Source of the DNA: Pseudomonas putida
GTDB taxonomy: Bacteria > Pseudomonadota > Gammaproteobacteria > Pseudomonadales > Pseudomonadaceae
NCBI RefSeq assembly: GCF_026625125.1
Contig: NZ_CP113097.1
Span: 2,294,001 to 2,358,000 of the forward strand
DNA: 64,000 nt
Direction: 5' to 3'
How positions within the stretch are numbered: the stretch's first letter is position 1; each line of letters opens with the position of its first letter. Made by a program: the position numbers and the translations under genes. Below the pieces are notes generated by a model that saw only the letters and a list, made by a program, of their open reading frames with translations, was not told where the DNA came from and made no database searches. This document shows, piece after piece, positions 33,901 through 42,441 of the stretch.

Positions 33901-33998
33901 GCGGCATGTGCTGGGCCTGCCAGGTGCGCTGGCCTGCTGCCAATGATTGCGATGTCGTCTAGATTACAACCAATCTCTCCACCGCAAGGAGTGCCCTC

Positions 33999-34154
33999 AT
34001 GGCCAAGTTGAAAGCGTTGATTGCCGCTGTAACGTCTGTGGCAGTGCTAGCGTCGTCGGGCGCTGCGCTCGCCGACCCGGGTAACGGCAAAGGCAACGGT
34101 AATGGCAGCTTCGAGCACCGGGCTGGCGGCAAGGACGTCGATTTCAAAGGCTGA
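33999..34154 (+). CDS. Small exported Gly/Asn-rich protein, 51 residues
   Basis: An ATG 8 bases after AAGGAG opens a 51-codon frame. Residues 1-25 (MAKLKALIAAVTSVAVLASS then GAALA) are a clear signal peptide with an Ala-x-Ala cleavage site. The mature part is DPGNGKGNGNGSFEHRAGGK and DVDFKG. No function is known to me. It stands alone after the LysR gene. A hairpin CAGGCG-N9-CGCCTG follows at 34156-34176 and may end it. Confidence 0.65.
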   Translation: MAKLKALIAAVTSVAVLASSGAALADPGNGKGNGNGSFEHRAGGKDVDFKG

Positions 34155-34200
34155 CCAGGCGCGGATACGCCGCCTGATCAATGCCCGCATCTGTGGGAGA

Positions 34201-35205
34201 TCAAGCGGCAAGCTTGCCGCGAACCTCCTGAGCATGCTCCAGCTCTTTGTGGACGCTGTCCTGCAGGACCACGTCCTTACCGTTCTTCTTGCCGGCCAGG
34301 GCGCTCTGTACCAGCTGGGTCAGCAGTTTTACTAGCATGATGTTGTTGGACAGCAGATCTTTTTCATCCTGGCTGAATGCGTTGTAATCAGTGGTGCGCT
34401 GAACCAACTGCTCCAGGCTGGTAACGTGTTTCACGTACAGGCTGAATGTGATGGTCAGTTCACCAATGACTTTGTCGCTGATGAGCTTGAGCTTTTTCAG
34501 GTAAACAGTCGATTCCTTGATCAGGTCGACAGTCTTGTTCACTTCCTGGCGGATCTCTTCGGCCTTTTCGAGGCTTGAGTTGCCCTTGGCATTGAGCAGC
34601 AAACCACCTACGGCAATCACCGGGCCCGCCACTGCACCGCCCAGTACCATCGAGCCCAGTGCCATGCCGCCGCCACCTGCAGAAAGCGCGCCGCCGCCCA
34701 GGGCCGCGAGCGTGGCGTTGTAGGCAGCAACGCCAGACAGCGAGCTGATTGCCGTGCCGGTCGACGCCACCCCCAGAGCCATGGTGCCACCGTAGGCGGC
34801 AAAGCCTGCAAGTGCGCCAGCGCTTGCAGTCAGTGCCGAGCTGCCGAGAAGGTCGATTGCGGAAATGGAGATTTCCTTGATCTGATCCAGATCGTGCTTG
34901 TCGAAGCGGATGTCCTCGCCGTGAAACTCTTTGAATTGGGGCTTGTTCTTGATTTTCTCGTAGGCGGATGCAAAACGTCCGAAGCTACGGCTGATATCGA
35001 GCTTGAGTGCACCCAGCGCCTCAAGCGATTGCTCAGTGTTCTTCTGGTCACCGTCAAGTTGTTCGCGGGCGCGGTCATAGCGCTCCTGCGCGTCGGCGAC
35101 GATGCCTTTGGCTTCGGAAATTTTCTTGGCGCCTTTCACGCCGCCGGCGATCCCGGCTCCACCCGCGACTACAGCTGCACCGATCAACAGAAACGGTAAT
35201 GGCAT
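34201..35205 (-). CDS. Glycine-rich membrane protein with coiled-coil flanks, unknown function
   Basis: A 334-residue protein. Residues 3-24 are a hydrophobic N-terminal segment (PLPFLLIGAAVVAGGAG). Residues about 28-110 are charged and helical. Residues about 112-206 are a long stretch of Gly, Ala, Ser and Leu with repeated small-x3-small spacing (glycine-zipper-like, e.g. GALAGFAAYGG, GAVAGPVIAVGG). Residues 210-300 are helical again. The layout (helix, hydrophobic hairpin, helix) resembles pore-forming or membrane-remodelling helical proteins, but no family is recognised with confidence. It is the third gene of a compact operon; its start is 2 bases after the previous stop. Confidence 0.8.
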   Translation of the reverse strand: MPLPFLLIGAAVVAGGAGIAGGVKGAKKISEAKGIVADAQERYDRAREQLDGDQKNTEQSLEALGALKLDISRSFGRFASAYEKIKNKPQFKEFHGEDIRFDKHDLDQIKEISISAIDLLGSSALTASAGALAGFAAYGGTMALGVASTGTAISSLSGVAAYNATLAALGGGALSAGGGGMALGSMVLGGAVAGPVIAVGGLLLNAKGNSSLEKAEEIRQEVNKTVDLIKESTVYLKKLKLISDKVIGELTITFSLYVKHVTSLEQLVQRTTDYNAFSQDEKDLLSNNIMLVKLLTQLVQSALAGKKNGKDVVLQDSVHKELEHAQEVRGKLAA

Positions 35206-35207
35206 CT

Positions 35208-35474
35208 CTAACGTGTCCTTTTGCTTTTGAGAGTTTCACAGGCAGCCTGATTGAGCACATGGAACTGCGCTCGGCTCATGTGGCTTGCGTAAATGTGGTC
35301 GTAGCTGTCGTCGATCCGGCACTTGAGCGGTCGTTGCTCATAAATGCCGCAGCGGCTGCTGCCCTTGTCGTAGTGGCGGCAAACCCCTGTGCCGTCGTCC
35401 AGGTCGCTGTACAGCGGCTGCCCTGCCAGGTTCTGGCAGCACAGCCCACAGGCATCGCAGTTGAACCGCGACAT
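35208..35474 (-). CDS. CxxCxxCC (YkgJ-type) zinc/iron-binding protein
   Basis: An 88-residue protein. The N-terminus CDACGLCC (Cys6, 9, 12, 13) and later CRHY, CGIY and PLKCR are the metal-binding cysteine set of the YkgJ/CxxCxxCC family, often described as a putative zinc- or iron-chelating domain. It lies 6 bases after the HNH-like gene and 2 bases before the glycine-rich gene, so all three are co-transcribed. Its biochemical role is unknown. Confidence 0.85.
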   Translation of the reverse strand: MSRFNCDACGLCCQNLAGQPLYSDLDDGTGVCRHYDKGSSRCGIYEQRPLKCRIDDSYDHIYASHMSRAQFHVLNQAACETLKSKRTR

Positions 35475-35480
35475 TGGCGC

Positions 35481-37145
35481 TCAAAACACCAGCACAGCGT
35501 CTTTGTCGTTCATGAAGTCGTCCAAGCCTTTGCGATCTTGGTAAGGCATGTCGATTTCGCAAGTCGCCATGGCACTGAACAGTGCGTCATTCAGGTCGGC
35601 ATGGGTTTGTGCCAGCACCAGGCTGGCATTGACCTTCTGCAACGTGGCCAGCTGGTCTTGCAACTGCTGGAAGTCAATGCCCGCGAGTTCGGCGGTATAG
35701 GCTTCCAGGCGCTGATTGACCAGCTTGTAGTAGTCCAGCGTGTGATCCAGTGTCGACTTGAGGCCGTTGGCGAACTCGACAATCCGGTTCACCAGCGGCG
35801 AGTGGTCGATGAAGTACAGCAAGGAGATGTTCAGCAAGCCGCTGGCCAGCGCGCCGACGAAGGTGGAAAGTATTTCTCCCAGCACTGGAACCTGCATGCC
35901 AGGCACTTTGGCGATGGCTTCTTGCACCAGCACTCCGGTACACACCGACACGCCGGTTGCTACGATCTTCGAGACTGCGCGCAGCAACTCACCGAATGGC
36001 AGCCGCTGGGGGTTGAATACCAGCGTGCGCACCGCTTCAAGGATGGTTGCCCAGGATTCACGCAGGATCTTGGCGACGTTCTTGGCCGTGGTGAAGAAGA
36101 TATTGATCAAGGTGGTCATCACTGACGACAGCACGCCAGCGAGCAGCCCGTCCTTGAAACGTGTCAGCAGTTCACCGCGCCGGGCCTGTACGCCTTCAAA
36201 CGCTGCCTTGCAGGCATTACCCAAGTGCTGCAGGAAGAGGCCGAGGTCAAAGTTGCCTTTCATGCTCTGCAGAATGTGCGGCAGTTCCTGGCGTAGCGCA
36301 TTCCACGCTTCGATCAGCACCAGGCCGAGCGTTTCCCGGGCGCCCATGCGGACCCCTTGGTTGAGGCTGGCACTGGCAGTGTCGGCCAGGAATGCAGTGC
36401 TGGTGTAATAACTGTTGGCCAGTTCGCGCTCATAGGCTTCACGGGCGATCCGGTCTCTTTCACGCAGTTTGCCCGGGTCGACGGCGTCGAGTTTCTCAAG
36501 CTTGTTCAACGTTTTGCGTTCTTTATCGGTCAGGCCCACACTGCGCTGCTTCGATTGAAGATCGCTGATTTCAGCCTTGCGTTGCGCTTCGTTCTGGTCG
36601 AGGTAGCGAATGAACTCGTCAGCGCTCTTGTCCTTTTTCGATGTATTGACAGACCCATCGGTGGCGTTGAGGTTACTGCGCTGATTGGCCAGTTCTACAC
36701 CATCACGGTTTGCCAGAACCCGCGCACGGTCGTCGTGGATCTCTTTCGCCGAGATAGTGTGGTCGCGATGTACATCGGCGTTCGGCGCGAACGTCTTGCC
36801 CGTATAGGCATCCTGCAGCGTGCCGGATTGCTTGCCAGCTTTGTACTCTCGGCCTACCTGTATGTAAGTGTCGGTGGAGTGGTAAGCCGCGCTGTCATAA
36901 TCGCCGCGCGCCGCATAAGCCGCCTCGTTCGCTGCGGATGCATAGCCAACGGTCTCGTCGCGCACGGTATGCAGGGTATCTACATGGCCACCACGTCGAT
37001 CGTTGGCCAACAGGAAGTCCAGGCCGAATGAAGTGAGCAGGCTTTTGATGACGACTTGCTCGTACTGGTGCACAAGCGTTGCGCCTACATCGGGGGTGGC
37101 CTGGTGGACGGCTTGGGCCAAGGGATCCACGGCGAGTTGGGTCAT
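35481..37145 (-). CDS. HNH-like nuclease domain fused to a membrane-associated C-terminus, unknown function
   Basis: A 554-residue protein. Residues about 106-180 read LQDAYTGKTF, then RDHTISAKEIHDDRARVLAN, then NLNATDGSVNTSKKDKS. The Asp128-His129 pair, Asn160-region and Asn167-x-x-Lys170 follow the order of HNH/His-Me finger nucleases. Residues about 180-245 are a highly charged helix. Residues about 335-356, 389-412 and 420-447 are hydrophobic segments that could span or insert in the membrane. I chose the ATG at 37145, which has AAGGAG 9 bases upstream. It has its own sigma-70 promoter and heads a three-gene operon under a WYL-family regulator. HNH assignment is by motif reading only. Base composition is lower in GC than the flanking catabolic genes. 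Confidence 0.75.
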   Translation of the reverse strand: MTQLAVDPLAQAVHQATPDVGATLVHQYEQVVIKSLLTSFGLDFLLANDRRGGHVDTLHTVRDETVGYASAANEAAYAARGDYDSAAYHSTDTYIQVGREYKAGKQSGTLQDAYTGKTFAPNADVHRDHTISAKEIHDDRARVLANRDGVELANQRSNLNATDGSVNTSKKDKSADEFIRYLDQNEAQRKAEISDLQSKQRSVGLTDKERKTLNKLEKLDAVDPGKLRERDRIAREAYERELANSYYTSTAFLADTASASLNQGVRMGARETLGLVLIEAWNALRQELPHILQSMKGNFDLGLFLQHLGNACKAAFEGVQARRGELLTRFKDGLLAGVLSSVMTTLINIFFTTAKNVAKILRESWATILEAVRTLVFNPQRLPFGELLRAVSKIVATGVSVCTGVLVQEAIAKVPGMQVPVLGEILSTFVGALASGLLNISLLYFIDHSPLVNRIVEFANGLKSTLDHTLDYYKLVNQRLEAYTAELAGIDFQQLQDQLATLQKVNASLVLAQTHADLNDALFSAMATCEIDMPYQDRKGLDDFMNDKDAVLVF

Positions 37146-37211
37146 CAAACATGCTCCTTGCACGAATAGGGCGTCTTGCGGCGATTGGCAGATGTACCTG
37201 AATCGGAACGG

Positions 37212-37240
37212 AATATAGCGAAGTGCCATCTTTGGTTCAA
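37212..37240 (-). promoter_or_regulatory. Sigma-70 promoter of the HNH-like operon
   Basis: On the minus strand TTGAAC (37240-37235) and TATATT (37217-37212) are separated by exactly 17 bases. Transcription would begin near 37205, leaving a leader of about 60 bases. The palindrome ACGATATCGT (37258-37267) lies about 18 bases upstream of the -35 and GTCACGTGAC (37275-37284) a little further; either may be a regulator site. Confidence 0.7.
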
Positions 37241-37288
37241 GGCGCGGAGCAACTACTACGATATCGTGGTTGAAGTCACGTGACCTCA

Positions 37289-37315
37289 GGCGGTGGCTAC
37301 CCCGCTGGCACCGCC
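37289..37315. terminator. Hairpin after the WYL regulator gene
   Basis: GGCGGTG (37289-37295) pairs with CACCGCC (37309-37315). It lies 40 bases beyond the stop of the WYL gene and before the operon promoter. No T-run follows, so termination efficiency is uncertain. Confidence 0.4.
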
Positions 37316-37356
37316 GTGGCCAGTTCAGAAGAATGGCTAACTAACCCGTTGCTCAT

Positions 37357-38229
37357 TCACAGGTACAGCCAAGGCCTCAACGCCTCCAGGTTTTTCACCA
37401 CGATCTGCTGCGCCGATGCCTTGGGCTCAAGCTTTTTCGGGTCGATCTGATAGCGCTGCAGTACATAGCCCACCAGTGCGCAGCGGGTCGGGATCACCAG
37501 CTCACCGGCCTGCATACCCAGGTCAATTTCGATAATGGCCTTCTGTTCGGGGTTGAGACGGGAGTCTGGCTCGATGATCACATCGATCATGGTGTTCCAT
37601 TCCTCATCGTCATCGATCAGGTGCTCGCTCATGCGCTCGAACTCTGGTACGCCCCTGAACCTGCTCAGCACAAAATCCCGGTACTTGCGATTCTTCTCGC
37701 AATACGCGCGTACGTGCCAGCGCATGCCGGTGTAGACCAGGGTGTGGGGCGAAATCAGGCGTATTTCCGGTACCGGGTTGGCCAGCGACACGTATTCGAT
37801 AGAGAGCACTTCATTGTTACGGCAGGCCTTGAGCAGAGGGCGCAGCACGTCCGGGCGAATCGTCCTGTCGGGTACTTCCAGCACCTTGGTGTGGGCATAC
37901 GCCAACGCCAATCCCTCCACATGCGGCGCCCGCGAGTGGGTCTGATTGAGTAATTGCAGATAGGCATTGGCACTGTCATCGATGAACAGCGGCTTGAACT
38001 GCCTGCCGGGTACATAACCCTTCAGTTGCTTGTCATATGTAAGGTTTTTAGGCGCATGCTCACTGATGTAGGTATTGATGTCCTTGGAGGCCTGTTGGCG
38101 GCTTATGCCGAAGCTCTGCATCAAGTGCCCCGTGGTCAGCCGGCCCTCCCACCAGGCTACGGTTTCGATCAGGCGATAGCGAAGTGCCAGGTCCCAGCGG
38201 ACCTGGTTTATTTGCTGAGTGCGTTTCAT
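37357..38229 (-). CDS. CapW/BrxR-like WYL-domain transcriptional regulator
   Basis: A 290-residue regulator with an N-terminal winged helix (GHLMQSFGISRQQASKDINT, about 33-52), a central WYL domain (about 120-200; HTLVYTGMRWHVRAYCEKNR) and a C-terminal WCX-like extension (about 210-290). The helix-turn-helix plus NLTYDKQLKGYVPG pattern matches the BrxR/CapW group that controls BREX, CBASS and other defence loci. It lies upstream of the HNH-like operon in the same direction, 211 bases away. A long inverted repeat before its own start is the probable operator. Confidence 0.88.
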   Translation of the reverse strand: MKRTQQINQVRWDLALRYRLIETVAWWEGRLTTGHLMQSFGISRQQASKDINTYISEHAPKNLTYDKQLKGYVPGRQFKPLFIDDSANAYLQLLNQTHSRAPHVEGLALAYAHTKVLEVPDRTIRPDVLRPLLKACRNNEVLSIEYVSLANPVPEIRLISPHTLVYTGMRWHVRAYCEKNRKYRDFVLSRFRGVPEFERMSEHLIDDDEEWNTMIDVIIEPDSRLNPEQKAIIEIDLGMQAGELVIPTRCALVGYVLQRYQIDPKKLEPKASAQQIVVKNLEALRPWLYL

Positions 38230-38253
38230 GGCCCATCCATGTGTGCGAATTGT

Positions 38254-38286
38254 TTACCTGTATAAGTCTACAATCTATACGTGTAA
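38254..38286. promoter_or_regulatory. Probable WYL-regulator operator between divergent genes
   Basis: TTACCTGTATA (38254-38264) and TATACGTGTAA (38276-38286) form an 11-base inverted repeat with 9 matches and an 11-base spacer. This is the arm and spacing size expected of a dimeric CapW/BrxR site. It is 25 bases upstream of the WYL gene start. Within it TTTACC and TATACG, 17 bases apart, could be a rightward promoter for the 85-residue gene. Confidence 0.55.
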
Positions 38287-38348
38287 GAAATCACTACATA
38301 TCCTTTGGCTGTCTTCGAAACAAACTGACTTGGTAAAAGGATTGAACA

Positions 38349-38606
38349 ATGGCTACGACGGATATGATTTGGGCAGCGGCGCTTTTGATGATGCTGGTGA
38401 TTTCGGTGCTGCTGTTGGCCCAATACCTGAAACTGCAGGAAGTGTGGGAAACCCTCGTCAATTGCCGTACCACCCTGCGTTGGGCGCGGATTCAGCAATC
38501 GGAAAACAAGGAGCTGCGTTCTGCACTGCGCGCGCACCAGGCGCATGTCGACCAATTGCAGCGCAAGGTGACCCTGCTGCAAGCGCTGGTTCCTGAAGGC
38601 AAGTAG
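38349..38606 (+). CDS. Small single-pass membrane protein with coiled coil, 85 residues
   Basis: An 85-residue protein with one N-terminal membrane helix (DMIWAAALLMMLVISVLLLA, residues 5-24) and a charged helical tail (EVWETLVNC to LQALVPEGK) likely to form a coiled coil. The gene is divergent from the WYL regulator and convergent with the 5'-nucleotidase gene. AAGGATTG lies before the ATG. Function unknown. Whether it belongs to the WYL-controlled locus is open. Confidence 0.7.
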   Translation: MATTDMIWAAALLMMLVISVLLLAQYLKLQEVWETLVNCRTTLRWARIQQSENKELRSALRAHQAHVDQLQRKVTLLQALVPEGK

Positions 38607-38615
38607 ATCTGGCCT

Positions 38616-39605
38616 TTACTCTGCGGTGCTGTCGAGTTCGGCAAGGTTCACTGGGTGCTCGGCAACCTCGACACCCACCGCCCTGTTCGCCACTCCGAAT
38701 GGCACATGCACCATCGGCAAATCCCCTGCGGCCGACATCAGGTGGCTGCGCTGATCATCGAAGAACATGTGTGGCTTGAGAATCGACAGCACCCGGTCTT
38801 TCTCCATGCCTCCGAGAAAGAACGATTCATCCGGCGAAACGCCCCAGTTTTTCAAGGTCGTCACCCCACGTTCATGCGATGGGGCATTGCGCGCAGTGAC
38901 GATGGCGATGCGCAGGATGCGCTTGTACGCCGGGTCGAGCGCCAGTTTCTGGTCTTCAAGCGTACGAATCAGCGAAAGTTTGCGGTACAGATCCGCCAGG
39001 GGCCCCGGTTGGTGCGGTATGGCCTTGTGCGCATGCTCGTGGGCCTGAAACTCAGTCAGGTCCTGGCGCTGCTTGTACACGCTTTCGGCTTCGTCATCGG
39101 CGATCACGCCGTCGAAGTCGAAAGCCACCCGTAATTCGGTATCGATCTCGTCATCGTAGATCTTGCTCGGCAACACCAGGCCGGCGGGATAGTCGGCGTC
39201 GATGGCGCGCTGCACGTCCCCTTCGTGGGCGCTTAGAAACAGCGAGGCGTTGAAGGCCGGGATGTATTCGTAGGGCGAGCGGCCGGACATGAACGCGGCG
39301 CGGGTGATGTCCAGGCCGTAATGGGCGATGGAGCGGAACACCCGCAGGCCGGTTTCGGGTGAGTTGCGCGAGAGCAGCACCACTTCTACGGGCAACTGCT
39401 CGGGGAACGCTTTGTTGATGCTCAGGAAGCGGCGGATGAAGGGAAACGCCACACCTTTGGGAAAGGGTACGTCAAGGTTGGCCTCCTGGTGCAGGCGGTA
39501 GGCTTCCACGCCATCTGCCTGATAGATATCGTCCGAGACGGTCAGGTCGAACAGTGCACTGGAAGCGACGCCGACGACGAGTTTCTGTTCGATGGGGTAG
39601 GGCAT
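38616..39605 (-). CDS. 5'-nucleotidase (cN-I type)
   Basis: A 329-residue protein of the 5'-nucleotidase family related to cytosolic nucleotidase I. The HAD-like phosphatase motif VAFDFDGVIADDEAESVYK holds the nucleophile Asp. IAIVTARNAPSHERGVTTL and FLGGMEKDRVL are the later motifs, and MFFDDQRSHL the acidic motif. It hydrolyses nucleoside monophosphates in the cytoplasm. It is a conserved chromosomal gene and marks the edge of the accessory region. Confidence 0.88.
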   Translation of the reverse strand: MPYPIEQKLVVGVASSALFDLTVSDDIYQADGVEAYRLHQEANLDVPFPKGVAFPFIRRFLSINKAFPEQLPVEVVLLSRNSPETGLRVFRSIAHYGLDITRAAFMSGRSPYEYIPAFNASLFLSAHEGDVQRAIDADYPAGLVLPSKIYDDEIDTELRVAFDFDGVIADDEAESVYKQRQDLTEFQAHEHAHKAIPHQPGPLADLYRKLSLIRTLEDQKLALDPAYKRILRIAIVTARNAPSHERGVTTLKNWGVSPDESFFLGGMEKDRVLSILKPHMFFDDQRSHLMSAAGDLPMVHVPFGVANRAVGVEVAEHPVNLAELDSTAE

Positions 39606-39682
39606 GGGGAACCTTCGGCTGCATGAGAGTAAGGATGCCGGGGGTTAGACAAGGCTATTCCGCCCAAAGAGTTGACGCCCAG

Positions 39683-40336
39683 CTATTCTGCTCGGTAATG
39701 ATCTTCGTGATTAATCAGTGGCGAGTATTGCACCACCTTTTGCAAGGTCTTCAAAAGCTCTTCGCCTTTGTCAACGTCTGCAAGCAGTCGTGTAACCGGC
39801 GTGGTTATCAGGCTGCGCACGTCCTCTAAAGTGTTGAGCCCAGCAACACGCAAACTGTAAGTCCACCAGTCTGGTTGGCCTGTGTTTGCTGGCCAGCGGA
39901 AGAGGCGGGCACAGCCATTAGCCAATTGGTTCATTGTTGAAGGGATCATTTCATAACATGGGAAACCCATGTACTCCATCGTATTTGGATCCGTTACACT
40001 GTCCCAGAAACTGATATGCAGGAGTGGCTCATCAATTGAGCCAGCTTCAGGGCTATCGCAGAAGATGCTGAGCTGTAAACTCAGGAAGGCAGTGGCGTCG
40101 TCCTTGTTGGCAGGGGCGAGTGGCACAAACCAGACCATATCGGAATACACCCAACCGGCCCCGATGGTTTTGTATCGACTGCTCCATTTTCCGGGTGCCA
40201 AACCCAGTGCACGGGCGGCTGACGGCAACTGCTCGCTGATCTCTTGCCGGATCAATTGAGCAAGGGCTTCGCATTCTTCGCCCACTTTAGATACGTAGTT
40301 GAATGCCTCTGCGATTGTTTGGCCGACCGTTTTCAT
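39683..40336 (-). CDS. Unknown partner of a PD-(D/E)XK-like nuclease
   Basis: A 217-residue soluble protein starting MKTVGQTIAEAFNYVSKVGE, with no membrane segment. The middle (KWSSRYKTIGAGWVYSDMVW) is rich in Trp and Tyr. Its ATG overlaps the stop of the upstream gene (ATGA), so the two are translationally coupled and probably act together. I do not recognise a family. It could be an immunity, specificity or sensor partner. Confidence 0.75.
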   Translation of the reverse strand: MKTVGQTIAEAFNYVSKVGEECEALAQLIRQEISEQLPSAARALGLAPGKWSSRYKTIGAGWVYSDMVWFVPLAPANKDDATAFLSLQLSIFCDSPEAGSIDEPLLHISFWDSVTDPNTMEYMGFPCYEMIPSTMNQLANGCARLFRWPANTGQPDWWTYSLRVAGLNTLEDVRSLITTPVTRLLADVDKGEELLKTLQKVVQYSPLINHEDHYRAE

Positions 40337-41034
40337 AAGTGCGCCTTGAAGTTGGAAACCGATGAAAAGAAAAGTGGCCCAACGGGCACTGATAGCGATG
40401 GTTGCTCAATTGAAGAGAAACCGCGGAATGTGGGTACTCTAACCAGCGAAAAAAACGCCATCACCTGATGACGCCACAATGTGAAGCCGTCGTTGGCTGA
40501 CGGAGCGCTGCGGTTGAGTATGGTCATCACATCGAACCAGTTGCGTGCTAGCAGCTTTCCTTGCCATACGTCCTGTCGGGCACATGCGTTGTGCGCTTCG
40601 GCGGAATCCAGGCCGATGAAAAGGTGATACGCGCTCATTTGCTCTTCTGGTGTAAGAAAACGCTGCCATTGGTTATGTAGTTGTGCTTCACCGCTCAGCG
40701 GTGCACGCCATTTGAACTCTACCAACAGGATTCTTGTTTCCTCACCCCACCAAAGCTTCACATAAAGGTCTGGCTCAATATTACAGCGCTTTGGCCAGAA
40801 CTCCATTTGTGCTCGCGTGGGGGCTGTTGAAGGAAATGAGATTTCAGGGTTGTAAAGCTTGATCAATGCCTCCCAAAACGAGACGATTGTGGTTGCGTCA
40901 AGGAATGCGAGTGGCCCCATGATGAGTGAAGTAATTTCATCTTCAGCACTGATTCGGCGCTCTTCAGGATCGTCTCTGATGCCAAGATAGCGCTGGAAAA
41001 GGAGTGATTTTTTCTGATTGAAGGCATGTAGCAC
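40333..41034 (-). CDS. PD-(D/E)XK-like nuclease, unknown system
   Basis: A 233-residue protein. SAEDEITSLIMGPLAFL (about 29-45) supplies an N-terminal acidic residue, NIEPDLYVKL carries Asp89, ILLVEFKWR carries Glu106-x-Lys108, and EAQLHNQWQRF holds Gln118. This E, PD, ExK, Q order is the PD-(D/E)XK nuclease core. The start is GTG with GGAGG 5 bases upstream. It is followed by and overlaps the 217-residue gene. Base composition is clearly AT-richer than the flanks. A defence or anti-plasmid role is possible but not shown. Confidence 0.75.
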   Translation of the reverse strand: MLHAFNQKKSLLFQRYLGIRDDPEERRISAEDEITSLIMGPLAFLDATTIVSFWEALIKLYNPEISFPSTAPTRAQMEFWPKRCNIEPDLYVKLWWGEETRILLVEFKWRAPLSGEAQLHNQWQRFLTPEEQMSAYHLFIGLDSAEAHNACARQDVWQGKLLARNWFDVMTILNRSAPSANDGFTLWRHQVMAFFSLVRVPTFRGFSSIEQPSLSVPVGPLFFSSVSNFKAHL

Positions 41035-41075
41035 TACGACCTCCAGAGTAAGTCGATTCTAGGGGCACCGGTTTG

Positions 41076-41096
41076 GTCGATAGTGGGCCGATCGAC
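41076..41096. promoter_or_regulatory. Inverted repeat upstream of the PD-(D/E)XK-like gene
   Basis: GTCGAT-N9-ATCGAC is a perfect 6-base inverted repeat about 42 bases upstream of the nuclease gene and after the end of the direction of the GIY-YIG-like gene. It may be an operator or a weak terminator stem. ATCGA recurs nearby at 41053 and 41150. Confidence 0.35.
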
Positions 41097-41151
41097 AACA
41101 CCTGGCAGCAATGATTTCACCACAACTTCAGCTGCATATGCAATGAGTCGA

Positions 41152-42216
41152 TCAGTCGAATTCCAGTTTGAGCTGTTGAGCCGTTAGGGTATTTGGCGTA
41201 ACACTTTTAGGTAGAGGTATTGTTTTAAGTTCCGTATGCTTTTTGGTGAATGCTTTTTTATCCTTGCGCTTACTATTGTTGATATGCGAGCGGTTAAACA
41301 GCCCACTCCAAAGGGCACGGCCAAGTTCAGCTGTTTCCTCTTCAGTAAGGTCATCGATGAAAGATCGTCCTACATGAGATTGATACGCCGGGGGTAGAGG
41401 GTATCTTTCTGCGTGCTCGTCAAGCATAGCACGGTAAATTGCGCTTTTACCCTTGGATTCCCAGCTTTGCTCGAGACCCTCCATGTCTTTACGGATCGAA
41501 AAGCAAGCTTTTTTAAATAGAGAGCAACTCTGCGTAGATGTGCATAGATTTGCACCGGCCCAAATTTTTCTATTGTCAGCGGTCAGTCGAGAGATTTGGA
41601 GAATTGAGTCAATGAATGAGGCGGGGGTGTCCGGGCTAAAGAAGATTTCATAGTGGTTGCTGTGATCGCTGGTCTGTAATCTGACGACCCCAATGAGGTG
41701 GCGCGTCATTTCTTTAATGATTGCTCTGAAGCTTCGGGCGTTATGTGTGTTGCTGCAAAGTGCTCTGATTTGATTGCTCAGTCCTTCGAGGAAGCTTTGG
41801 AAGGCCTGTTGTCTTATGACGCCATTCTCAGTGATCGGCTTAATAAGCTTATGGTCGATGGCTTGTAGGCTGTAACCATCTCCCATCTTTACACAGGCTA
41901 ATGTTTTAAGGGATTCCACCATGCCGTCGTAGCATTCTTCTGCGAACCACTCCGTTTCCCCCTTGGCGAATTTTTTCTCCGGGAGTGGCGTATTGTAATC
42001 CGCGTACAGTGTTTTTAACATGGTCTCCAAATCAGTCGCATCTTTGCGGTTGTCAGTGCGGAGAGTAAAAGAACGCTTTAAGCAAAAGGGGCCGCACTCT
42101 CGGTTGAGGTCGTTGACACGACGTTTGAAGTCGCTGGAAATTCCCATTTTGTAAGAAATGCCATTTGTTCTAACGAGAATATACAAAAAGTGCTTGCCTA
42201 ACATTGGTTTGTCCAT
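41152..42216 (-). CDS. GIY-YIG-like (T5orf172/MUG113-type) nuclease-domain protein
   Basis: A 354-residue protein with this start. Residues about 8-95 read FLYILVRTNGISYKMGISSD, then FKRRVNDLN, then GETEWFAEECY. These match the GIY-YIG fold of the T5orf172 group (YIL, YKxG, KRR, EWF). The remaining 260 residues are charged and unrecognised. The ATG at 42216 is chosen because it directly precedes the domain; it has no good ribosome-binding site and the frame stays open to a TTG at 42327, so the start is uncertain. The stretch 41461-41520 has 26 G/C of 60, far below the neighbours, which suggests recent transfer. Confidence 0.7.
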   Translation of the reverse strand: MDKPMLGKHFLYILVRTNGISYKMGISSDFKRRVNDLNRECGPFCLKRSFTLRTDNRKDATDLETMLKTLYADYNTPLPEKKFAKGETEWFAEECYDGMVESLKTLACVKMGDGYSLQAIDHKLIKPITENGVIRQQAFQSFLEGLSNQIRALCSNTHNARSFRAIIKEMTRHLIGVVRLQTSDHSNHYEIFFSPDTPASFIDSILQISRLTADNRKIWAGANLCTSTQSCSLFKKACFSIRKDMEGLEQSWESKGKSAIYRAMLDEHAERYPLPPAYQSHVGRSFIDDLTEEETAELGRALWSGLFNRSHINNSKRKDKKAFTKKHTELKTIPLPKSVTPNTLTAQQLKLEFD

Positions 42217-42441
42217 AAATAGCGAGGCGGCATTGTGTATTGAGTCTGGCTGCAGCGCAAATGCGAGGTTGGCGTATATGCATTTCAGCGCTAAGCAGGC
42301 ATAACCACCCATTAAAGCCCAGCTCAATCTGCTTCGCTGTCCTATCGTGCAAGATTCTGACCTGCAGCAAGTCCTCCGGCCAAACCACCACTATGCTGAA
42401 CGCTCCAACTCAAGCTCACTCAGGTAACCAAGGAGGCATTC

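Follow-up and report, generated by a model that had tools for sequence, protein, structure and literature searches.

Here, we describe a gene cassette of Pseudomonas putida, made up of a WYL-domain regulator and three genes designated A, B and C, that is probably, going by its sequence, an uncharacterised defence against invading DNA. The cassette lies in a stretch of 64,000 nucleotides (the window; RefSeq assembly GCF_026625125.1, contig NZ_CP113097.1, positions 2,294,001 to 2,358,000), the numbering of which is used throughout. On the minus strand the order is WYL gene (37357 to 38229; 290 amino acids [aa]; BrxR/CapW-type), A (35481 to 37145; 554 aa; N-terminal HNH nuclease domain and C-terminal hydrophobic helices), B (35208 to 35474; 88 aa) and C (34201 to 35205; 334 aa). 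B starts at 35474, after a spacer of 6 bases from the end of the A stop codon (35481), C starts at 35205, after a spacer of 2 bases from the end of the B stop codon (35208), and 211 bases separate the end of the WYL gene from the A start codon (ATG, 37145); the coordinates thus agree with the three-gene operon, its order, strand and gaps of 2 to 6 bases, given in a preliminary description of this DNA. Ratios of nonsynonymous to synonymous substitution (dN/dS) against the related locus L024 (NG86; P. vranovensis) were 0.07 for A, 0.085 for B and 0.064 for C, at dS values above 1.2 and near saturation (YN00 gave 0.081 for C and no usable value for A, B or the WYL gene), and these low ratios make A, B and C look like real, constrained genes. 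The extent first proposed (34201 to 38286) holds for the genes and falls short for the strain-variable block around them, which is wider (33943 to 38683; no strand).

The N-terminal part of A carries a true HNH domain, as judged by profile and structure model (GmrSD_C-like; 36603 to 36833, minus strand; profile-match residues 105 to 181). Profile-profile comparison matched A to GmrSD_C-type HNH proteins at 97.5% (hhalign), and the structure model contains a beta-beta-alpha arrangement (strands at residues 125 to 129 and 159 to 163, helix at 164 to 170), so that an HNH fold was found where it had been proposed to look for one, at residues 100 to 185. The Asp/His/Asn/Asn set (D128, H129, N158, N167) was present in 27 of 27 aligned relatives; H129, N158 and N167 were unchanged in 27 of 27 A1 rows and 26 of 26 A2 rows. 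A catalytic His and two Asn on a beta-beta-alpha fold are what defines an HNH (His-Me finger) domain, and A has them; these residues argue for DNA cutting. C-terminal to this domain are three hydrophobic helices (35817 to 36149, minus strand; residues 333 to 351, 394 to 412 and 425 to 443) with conserved G337, T344, N348, T353 and R362. The invariant residues, the profile match and the hydrophobicity together bear out the earlier reading of A as an HNH-like motif joined to three hydrophobic segments. Loci L079, L080 and L090 hold relatives of the C-terminal half of A in which the HNH domain is very diverged or missing, and the partner genes at L080 and L090 are TerB-like.

The product of B is a CxxCxxCC (YkgJ-type) cysteine-cluster protein, as had been read from its sequence; it exceeds the gathering cut-off of the Pfam family CxxCxxCC (PF03692; 28.4 versus 23 bits), and its 8 Cys are invariant in 15 of 15 aligned rows. 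Protein C is Gly/Ala-rich, hydrophobic and probably helical, with hydrophobic segments at the N-terminus and centre and many invariant Gly and Ala in an alignment of 16 rows; its structure model was unusable (predicted local distance difference test [pLDDT], 42). The glycine-rich and hydrophobic character claimed for C is therefore present, but its likeness to pore formers comes down to the hydrophobicity pattern.

The regulator belongs to the BrxR/CapW family of WYL proteins, as proposed, by its matches to BrxR (7t8k; E 3.7e-64, residues 12 to 265), CapW (7tb6; E 5.3e-39, residues 8 to 288) and the WYL domain (PF13280; 52.3 bits versus a cut-off of 21.8), and it lies upstream of A in the same direction. 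It was the single WYL-domain gene found in the 5.86-Mb genome; any WYL gene occurred in 68 of 99 same-genus genomes, with a maximum of 4 per genome. Upstream of the gene is a conserved box (38252 to 38284, minus strand), in the window an imperfect 11-5-11 inverted repeat and putative autoregulatory operator, which could be aligned in 13 of 13 copies of the regulator type (matching arm positions, 7 of 11 in the window and 4 to 6 of 11 in other copies). BrxR operators are described, in PMC9122601, as inverted repeats with 10- to 11-bp arms and a 5-bp spacer. A probable sigma-70 promoter of A, B and C (TTGAAC-17-TATATT; 37212 to 37240, minus strand) had been called clear; it is present, but the match alone does not exceed chance expectation (over 4.3 kb, 1 site versus 1.8 in shuffled sequence), and it gains weight because L024, 82% identical, carries TTGAAT-17-TATATT before its own A (by eye). 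The intergenic region of the WYL gene is shared with a small divergent gene (38349 to 38606, plus strand; 85 aa), whose product has a single hydrophobic segment and a charged helical part. Relatives of this gene are divergently oriented next to the WYL type in 9 of 13 copies (7 by blastp, window included, and 2 by eye). Other copies adjoin very different cargo, e.g., LeoA/LeoBC-like GTPase and patatin-like genes; at L095 (1462 to 7034) this WYL type lies in the vicinity of a gene resembling phospholipase effectors and of a gene of 857 aa that matches LeoBC/ZorA weakly. At L034 (8588 to 10753) a single 721-aa frame joins the WYL protein and C, which is either a real fusion or a sequencing error.

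The cassette is mobile and sporadic across bacteria, plasmids and a few phages, as far as sequence comparison can tell. Gene A was found in 17 of 298 same-genus genomes (window genome counted; no match in 281), 64 of 72,556 plasmid records and 7 of 50,697 phage records, all of the latter being Aeromonas phages (D3, D6, D9 and LAh10; genomes of ~260 kb), and an enterobacterial form was found in 3 of 5,426 Escherichia coli genomes, all chromosomal. The single E. coli locus viewed (E41) holds a WYL-C-A-B cassette that adjoins an integrase and tRNA-Sec. The same-species genome G215 has an empty site, with 126 bp in place of 33943 to 38683 and flanks 98 to 99% identical to those of the window; the cassette occupies no fixed core locus. 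DNA identity with L024 covers 34201 to 38315, in two pieces, and nothing else of the window between 28000 and 46000. In phage LAh10 (L026, 4949 to 8023) a C-like and an A-like gene stand side by side, adjoining a gene annotated PagP.

A, B and C were seen to diverge together. Protein C was present in 16 fetched loci. A and B accompany it in all 15 that are bacterial or on plasmids, and the remaining one, in a phage, has A and lacks B (10 plasmid records had C, and five of these were fetched). Distance correlations over the 15 loci were 0.92 (A-B), 0.96 (A-C) and 0.90 (B-C), not reached in any of 2,000 permutations, although shared descent contributes to these values and is uncorrected. Relatives of A elsewhere have other hydrophobic or helical partners: a TerB-like protein (9 loci including the truncated L074, and also the C-terminal-half relative L090), at 5 loci a protein designated cl5, whose hydrophobic segment is C-terminal, or at 3 loci a relative of PDC-M40C, accompanied by SUKH at two of them. 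Every partner listed (16 C, 6 TerB-like, 4 cl5 and 2 M40C) had one or more hydrophobic segments. These groups were assigned with hidden Markov models and clusters built from the same loci, the TerB-like label comes from weak matches (L043, PF05099, 20.4 bits versus a cut-off of 24.4; L080, DUF533, below cut-off), and the coil in cl5 and M40C partners was read by eye. Neither the phage copy nor the TerB-like, cl5 and M40C loci showed a gene B, with the limit that at L040 and L074 the contig ends soon after A, where B would have gone unseen. On a tree of 33 A proteins the partner labels changed 5 times, the minimum possible, against a mean of 16.4 when shuffled; L079, L080, L026 and L028 have long branches, and the TerB-like group was not shown as a single clade. 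One clade (support, 97/91) unites the window, L024 and a plasmid row from C. difficile, which have the order WYL-A-B-C in common, and the remaining 12 A-B-C loci are ordered C-A-B. That the nuclease is conserved while its partners change speaks for a split between sensor and effector.

A WYL gene was found within 5 kb of A at 10 of 15 A-B-C loci, 5 of 5 cl5 loci and 1 of 8 examined TerB-like loci (L074 not among them), and at none of the 3 M40C loci, the phage locus or the one partnerless locus; among same-genus loci (window, L024 and L032 to L049) the count was 12 of 20. L025 has an extra truncated, WCX-bearing gene annotated WYL. The three genes thus occur together, in many cases near a WYL gene, and lack of such co-occurrence, lack of an HNH fold and a fixed core locus, which the preliminary description had named beforehand as findings that would count against it, were not encountered. 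At L036 (8865 to 13153) the two genes after B, of which the first shares 4 bases with it, match Orf5/SspE/HEC-06-type PADLOC models and look DUF262/GmrSD-like by eye. On the viral contig L074 (4682 to 6417) apparent tail genes come directly before the gene of a TerB-like partner and the beginning of A.

PADLOC models were run against nine proteins of the window. Protein A matched PDC-M40B (E 2e-33) and C matched both PDC-M09A models (E 6e-35 and 1e-30), so that the earlier statement that none of the three proteins matches a defence system does not stand: PADLOC-DB already holds relatives of A and C, under two separate candidates. The candidates were reportedly introduced in a preprint. PDC-M40 (PDC-M40A [SUKH], PDC-M40B and PDC-M40C) resembles the cassette in that, at L048, an A relative lies between PDC-M40A and PDC-M40C matches, and differs in that in the window A is partnered by C and B, beside a WYL gene, and neither PDC-M40A nor PDC-M40C was matched among the nine proteins. 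For PDC-M09 the likeness is C itself, and no other PDC-M09 part was matched there. The regulator family and the conserved upstream box, roughly 11-5-11 in its window copy, recall the BrxR/CapW-controlled loci, among them bacteriophage exclusion (BREX), cyclic oligonucleotide-based antiphage signalling (CBASS) and other defences, treated in PMC9122601, whereas the window cargo is neither BREX nor CBASS (no BREX core or CBASS cyclase PADLOC match among the nine proteins, E up to 1) and is often adjoined by the small divergent hydrophobic gene. With GmrSD_C/HNH_4-type nucleases A shares the DH...N...N-x-x-K signature and a preceding Y-T/S-G motif; in contrast, the nuclease domain of A is joined to a conserved domain of hydrophobic helices, and its nearest relatives without that domain are 206 to 367 aa long, with one of 601 aa. 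Zorya consists of a ZorAB motor and the HNH protein ZorE and resembles the cassette in concept, by combining an HNH nuclease with a membrane component; no Zor model (ZorA/ZorB) was matched by the nine proteins (E up to 1). At L089 (2891 to 5886) the gene for the 601-aa protein, a fusion of OmpA and a GmrSD_C HNH domain, stands beside a gene for a hydrophobic/helical protein; the two may form a motor pair as in Zorya, with the nuclease fused on. No paper describing the cassette was found among the titles and abstract openings searched, and the names PDC-M09 and PDC-M40 were absent from that literature. New here are the HNH assignment, the partner swapping, the link between PDC-M09 and PDC-M40 through one nuclease family, the link to a BrxR-type regulator and the phage copies.

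Sequence shows the HNH domain, the hydrophobic segments, the WYL identity, the co-inheritance and the mobility, and from these we infer a mechanism. A would be an HNH endonuclease anchored at the inner membrane by its C-terminal helices. C, a membrane-associated, Gly/Ala-rich helical protein, would make up the scaffold or sensor together with A, and B, small and metal-binding, would be an accessory that goes with the C form and not with A. The BrxR-type protein would keep its own gene low, and probably the A-B-C operon too, until an infection or DNA-damage signal relieved repression; the membrane-held nuclease would then cut incoming or damaged DNA, and the invader would be stopped or the infected cell killed. 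Mobility, carriage by phages and plasmids and the BrxR-type switch argue for a role in conflict, and we rate a horizontally moved conflict cassette with a WYL-repressed, membrane-tethered HNH nuclease, most likely anti-phage or anti-plasmid, at somewhat better than even.

Several results weigh against this reading. As a single sequence, A had no HNH or GmrSD_C match in Pfam or NCBIfam (Pfam up to E 1), and the assignment comes from profile comparison. The WYL box has no good copy in front of A, so that regulation of A by the WYL protein is presumptive. No WYL gene was near 4 of 15 A-B-C loci, even counting one truncated copy, or near 7 of 8 examined TerB-like loci, 3 of 3 M40C loci or the phage locus. 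The C. difficile row has a long branch and unusual composition, on which its clade with the window partly rests. Two other PADLOC candidates that had been assayed were not active and gave no protection, according to PMC12409345, and the candidate model PDC-S08 matches a neighbouring 5'-nucleotidase gene (38616 to 39605; E 1.1e-135) that is largely present in G215; for both reasons PADLOC candidate status is weak evidence.

Other functions were weighed against the same data. The hydrophobic parts of A and C could themselves form a pore or membrane disruptor, with the HNH domain as sensor or recent addition; C is Gly/Ala-rich and hydrophobic, hydrophobic segments recur in all listed partners, and the L090 relative keeps the C-terminal half of A without the HNH domain, a point that also tells against the nuclease, but the invariance of H129, N158 and N167 in both alignments argues for catalysis, and we give such an effector a small though real chance. 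It is unlikely that the cassette is a polymorphic-toxin-like module, in which A would be a nuclease toxin used against neighbours or rival elements and immunity would come from the partners (SUKH in PDC-M40 relatives, perhaps B here). A SUKH protein does lie upstream of A in L048 and L049, and HNH domains are common as toxin tips; yet the SUKH cluster occurs in 2 of 27 loci, the nine window proteins include no SUKH, Pfam shows no secretion or repeat domain, WYL genes are frequent in the group of the window, and a nuclease at the N-terminus with hydrophobic helices at the C-terminus is the reverse of the usual layout of secreted toxins.

The carriage of A on 64 plasmid records, in phages and on an E. 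coli island at tRNA-Sec would also suit an addiction module of plasmids or islands, with A and C as a toxin punishing loss and the WYL protein or B as restraint. No antitoxin-like gene is constant, however, since B goes unseen in the phage and the loci with other partners, the WYL genes, which fall into two or more sequence types, substitute for each other and some loci show none, and we regard addiction as quite unlikely. That the genes encode housekeeping enzymes is very improbable. Records name A 'hypothetical', 'cobalamin adenosyltransferase', 'ATPase' or 'membrane protein', and across plasmid and phage records the three genes are called hypothetical, cobalamin adenosyltransferase, chemotaxis protein or ATPase, but no such domain was found in Pfam or NCBIfam, the block is strain-variable, and the absence of A from most same-genus genomes and the HNH match weigh heavily against these names.

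Around the cassette, a possible small gene (33998 to 34153; Gly-rich peptide with a signal-like start; by eye) lies between a LysR gene and C, within the variable block. The boundary of the cassette falls inside the 3' end of the 5'-nucleotidase gene, most of which (38684 to 39607) is 93% identical in G215, so that this gene may be ordinary. On its other side is a second strain-variable block (39608 to 42340), in place of which G215 has 69 bp; it holds a T5orf172/GIY-YIG-type nuclease gene (41152 to 42327) and a weak PDC-M15A relative (40333 to 41034).

More broadly, and short of an even chance in our estimate, A may be the core of a modular immune family, in which a conserved membrane-tethered HNH nuclease is combined with an exchanged hydrophobic/helical partner (C with B, TerB-like, cl5, or M40C, the last with SUKH in two of three loci), often beside BrxR-type or other WYL switches, on chromosomes, plasmids and phages. 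PDC-M09 and PDC-M40 would then be united as an envelope-positioned nuclease immunity that meets DNA at its entry through the membrane. A poorly annotated gene trio becomes a testable system with named catalytic residues, two separate PADLOC candidates would be joined through one nuclease family, and the BrxR-type regulator would gain a new cargo. The copies in Aeromonas phages raise the possibility that phages turn the same genes on their rivals.
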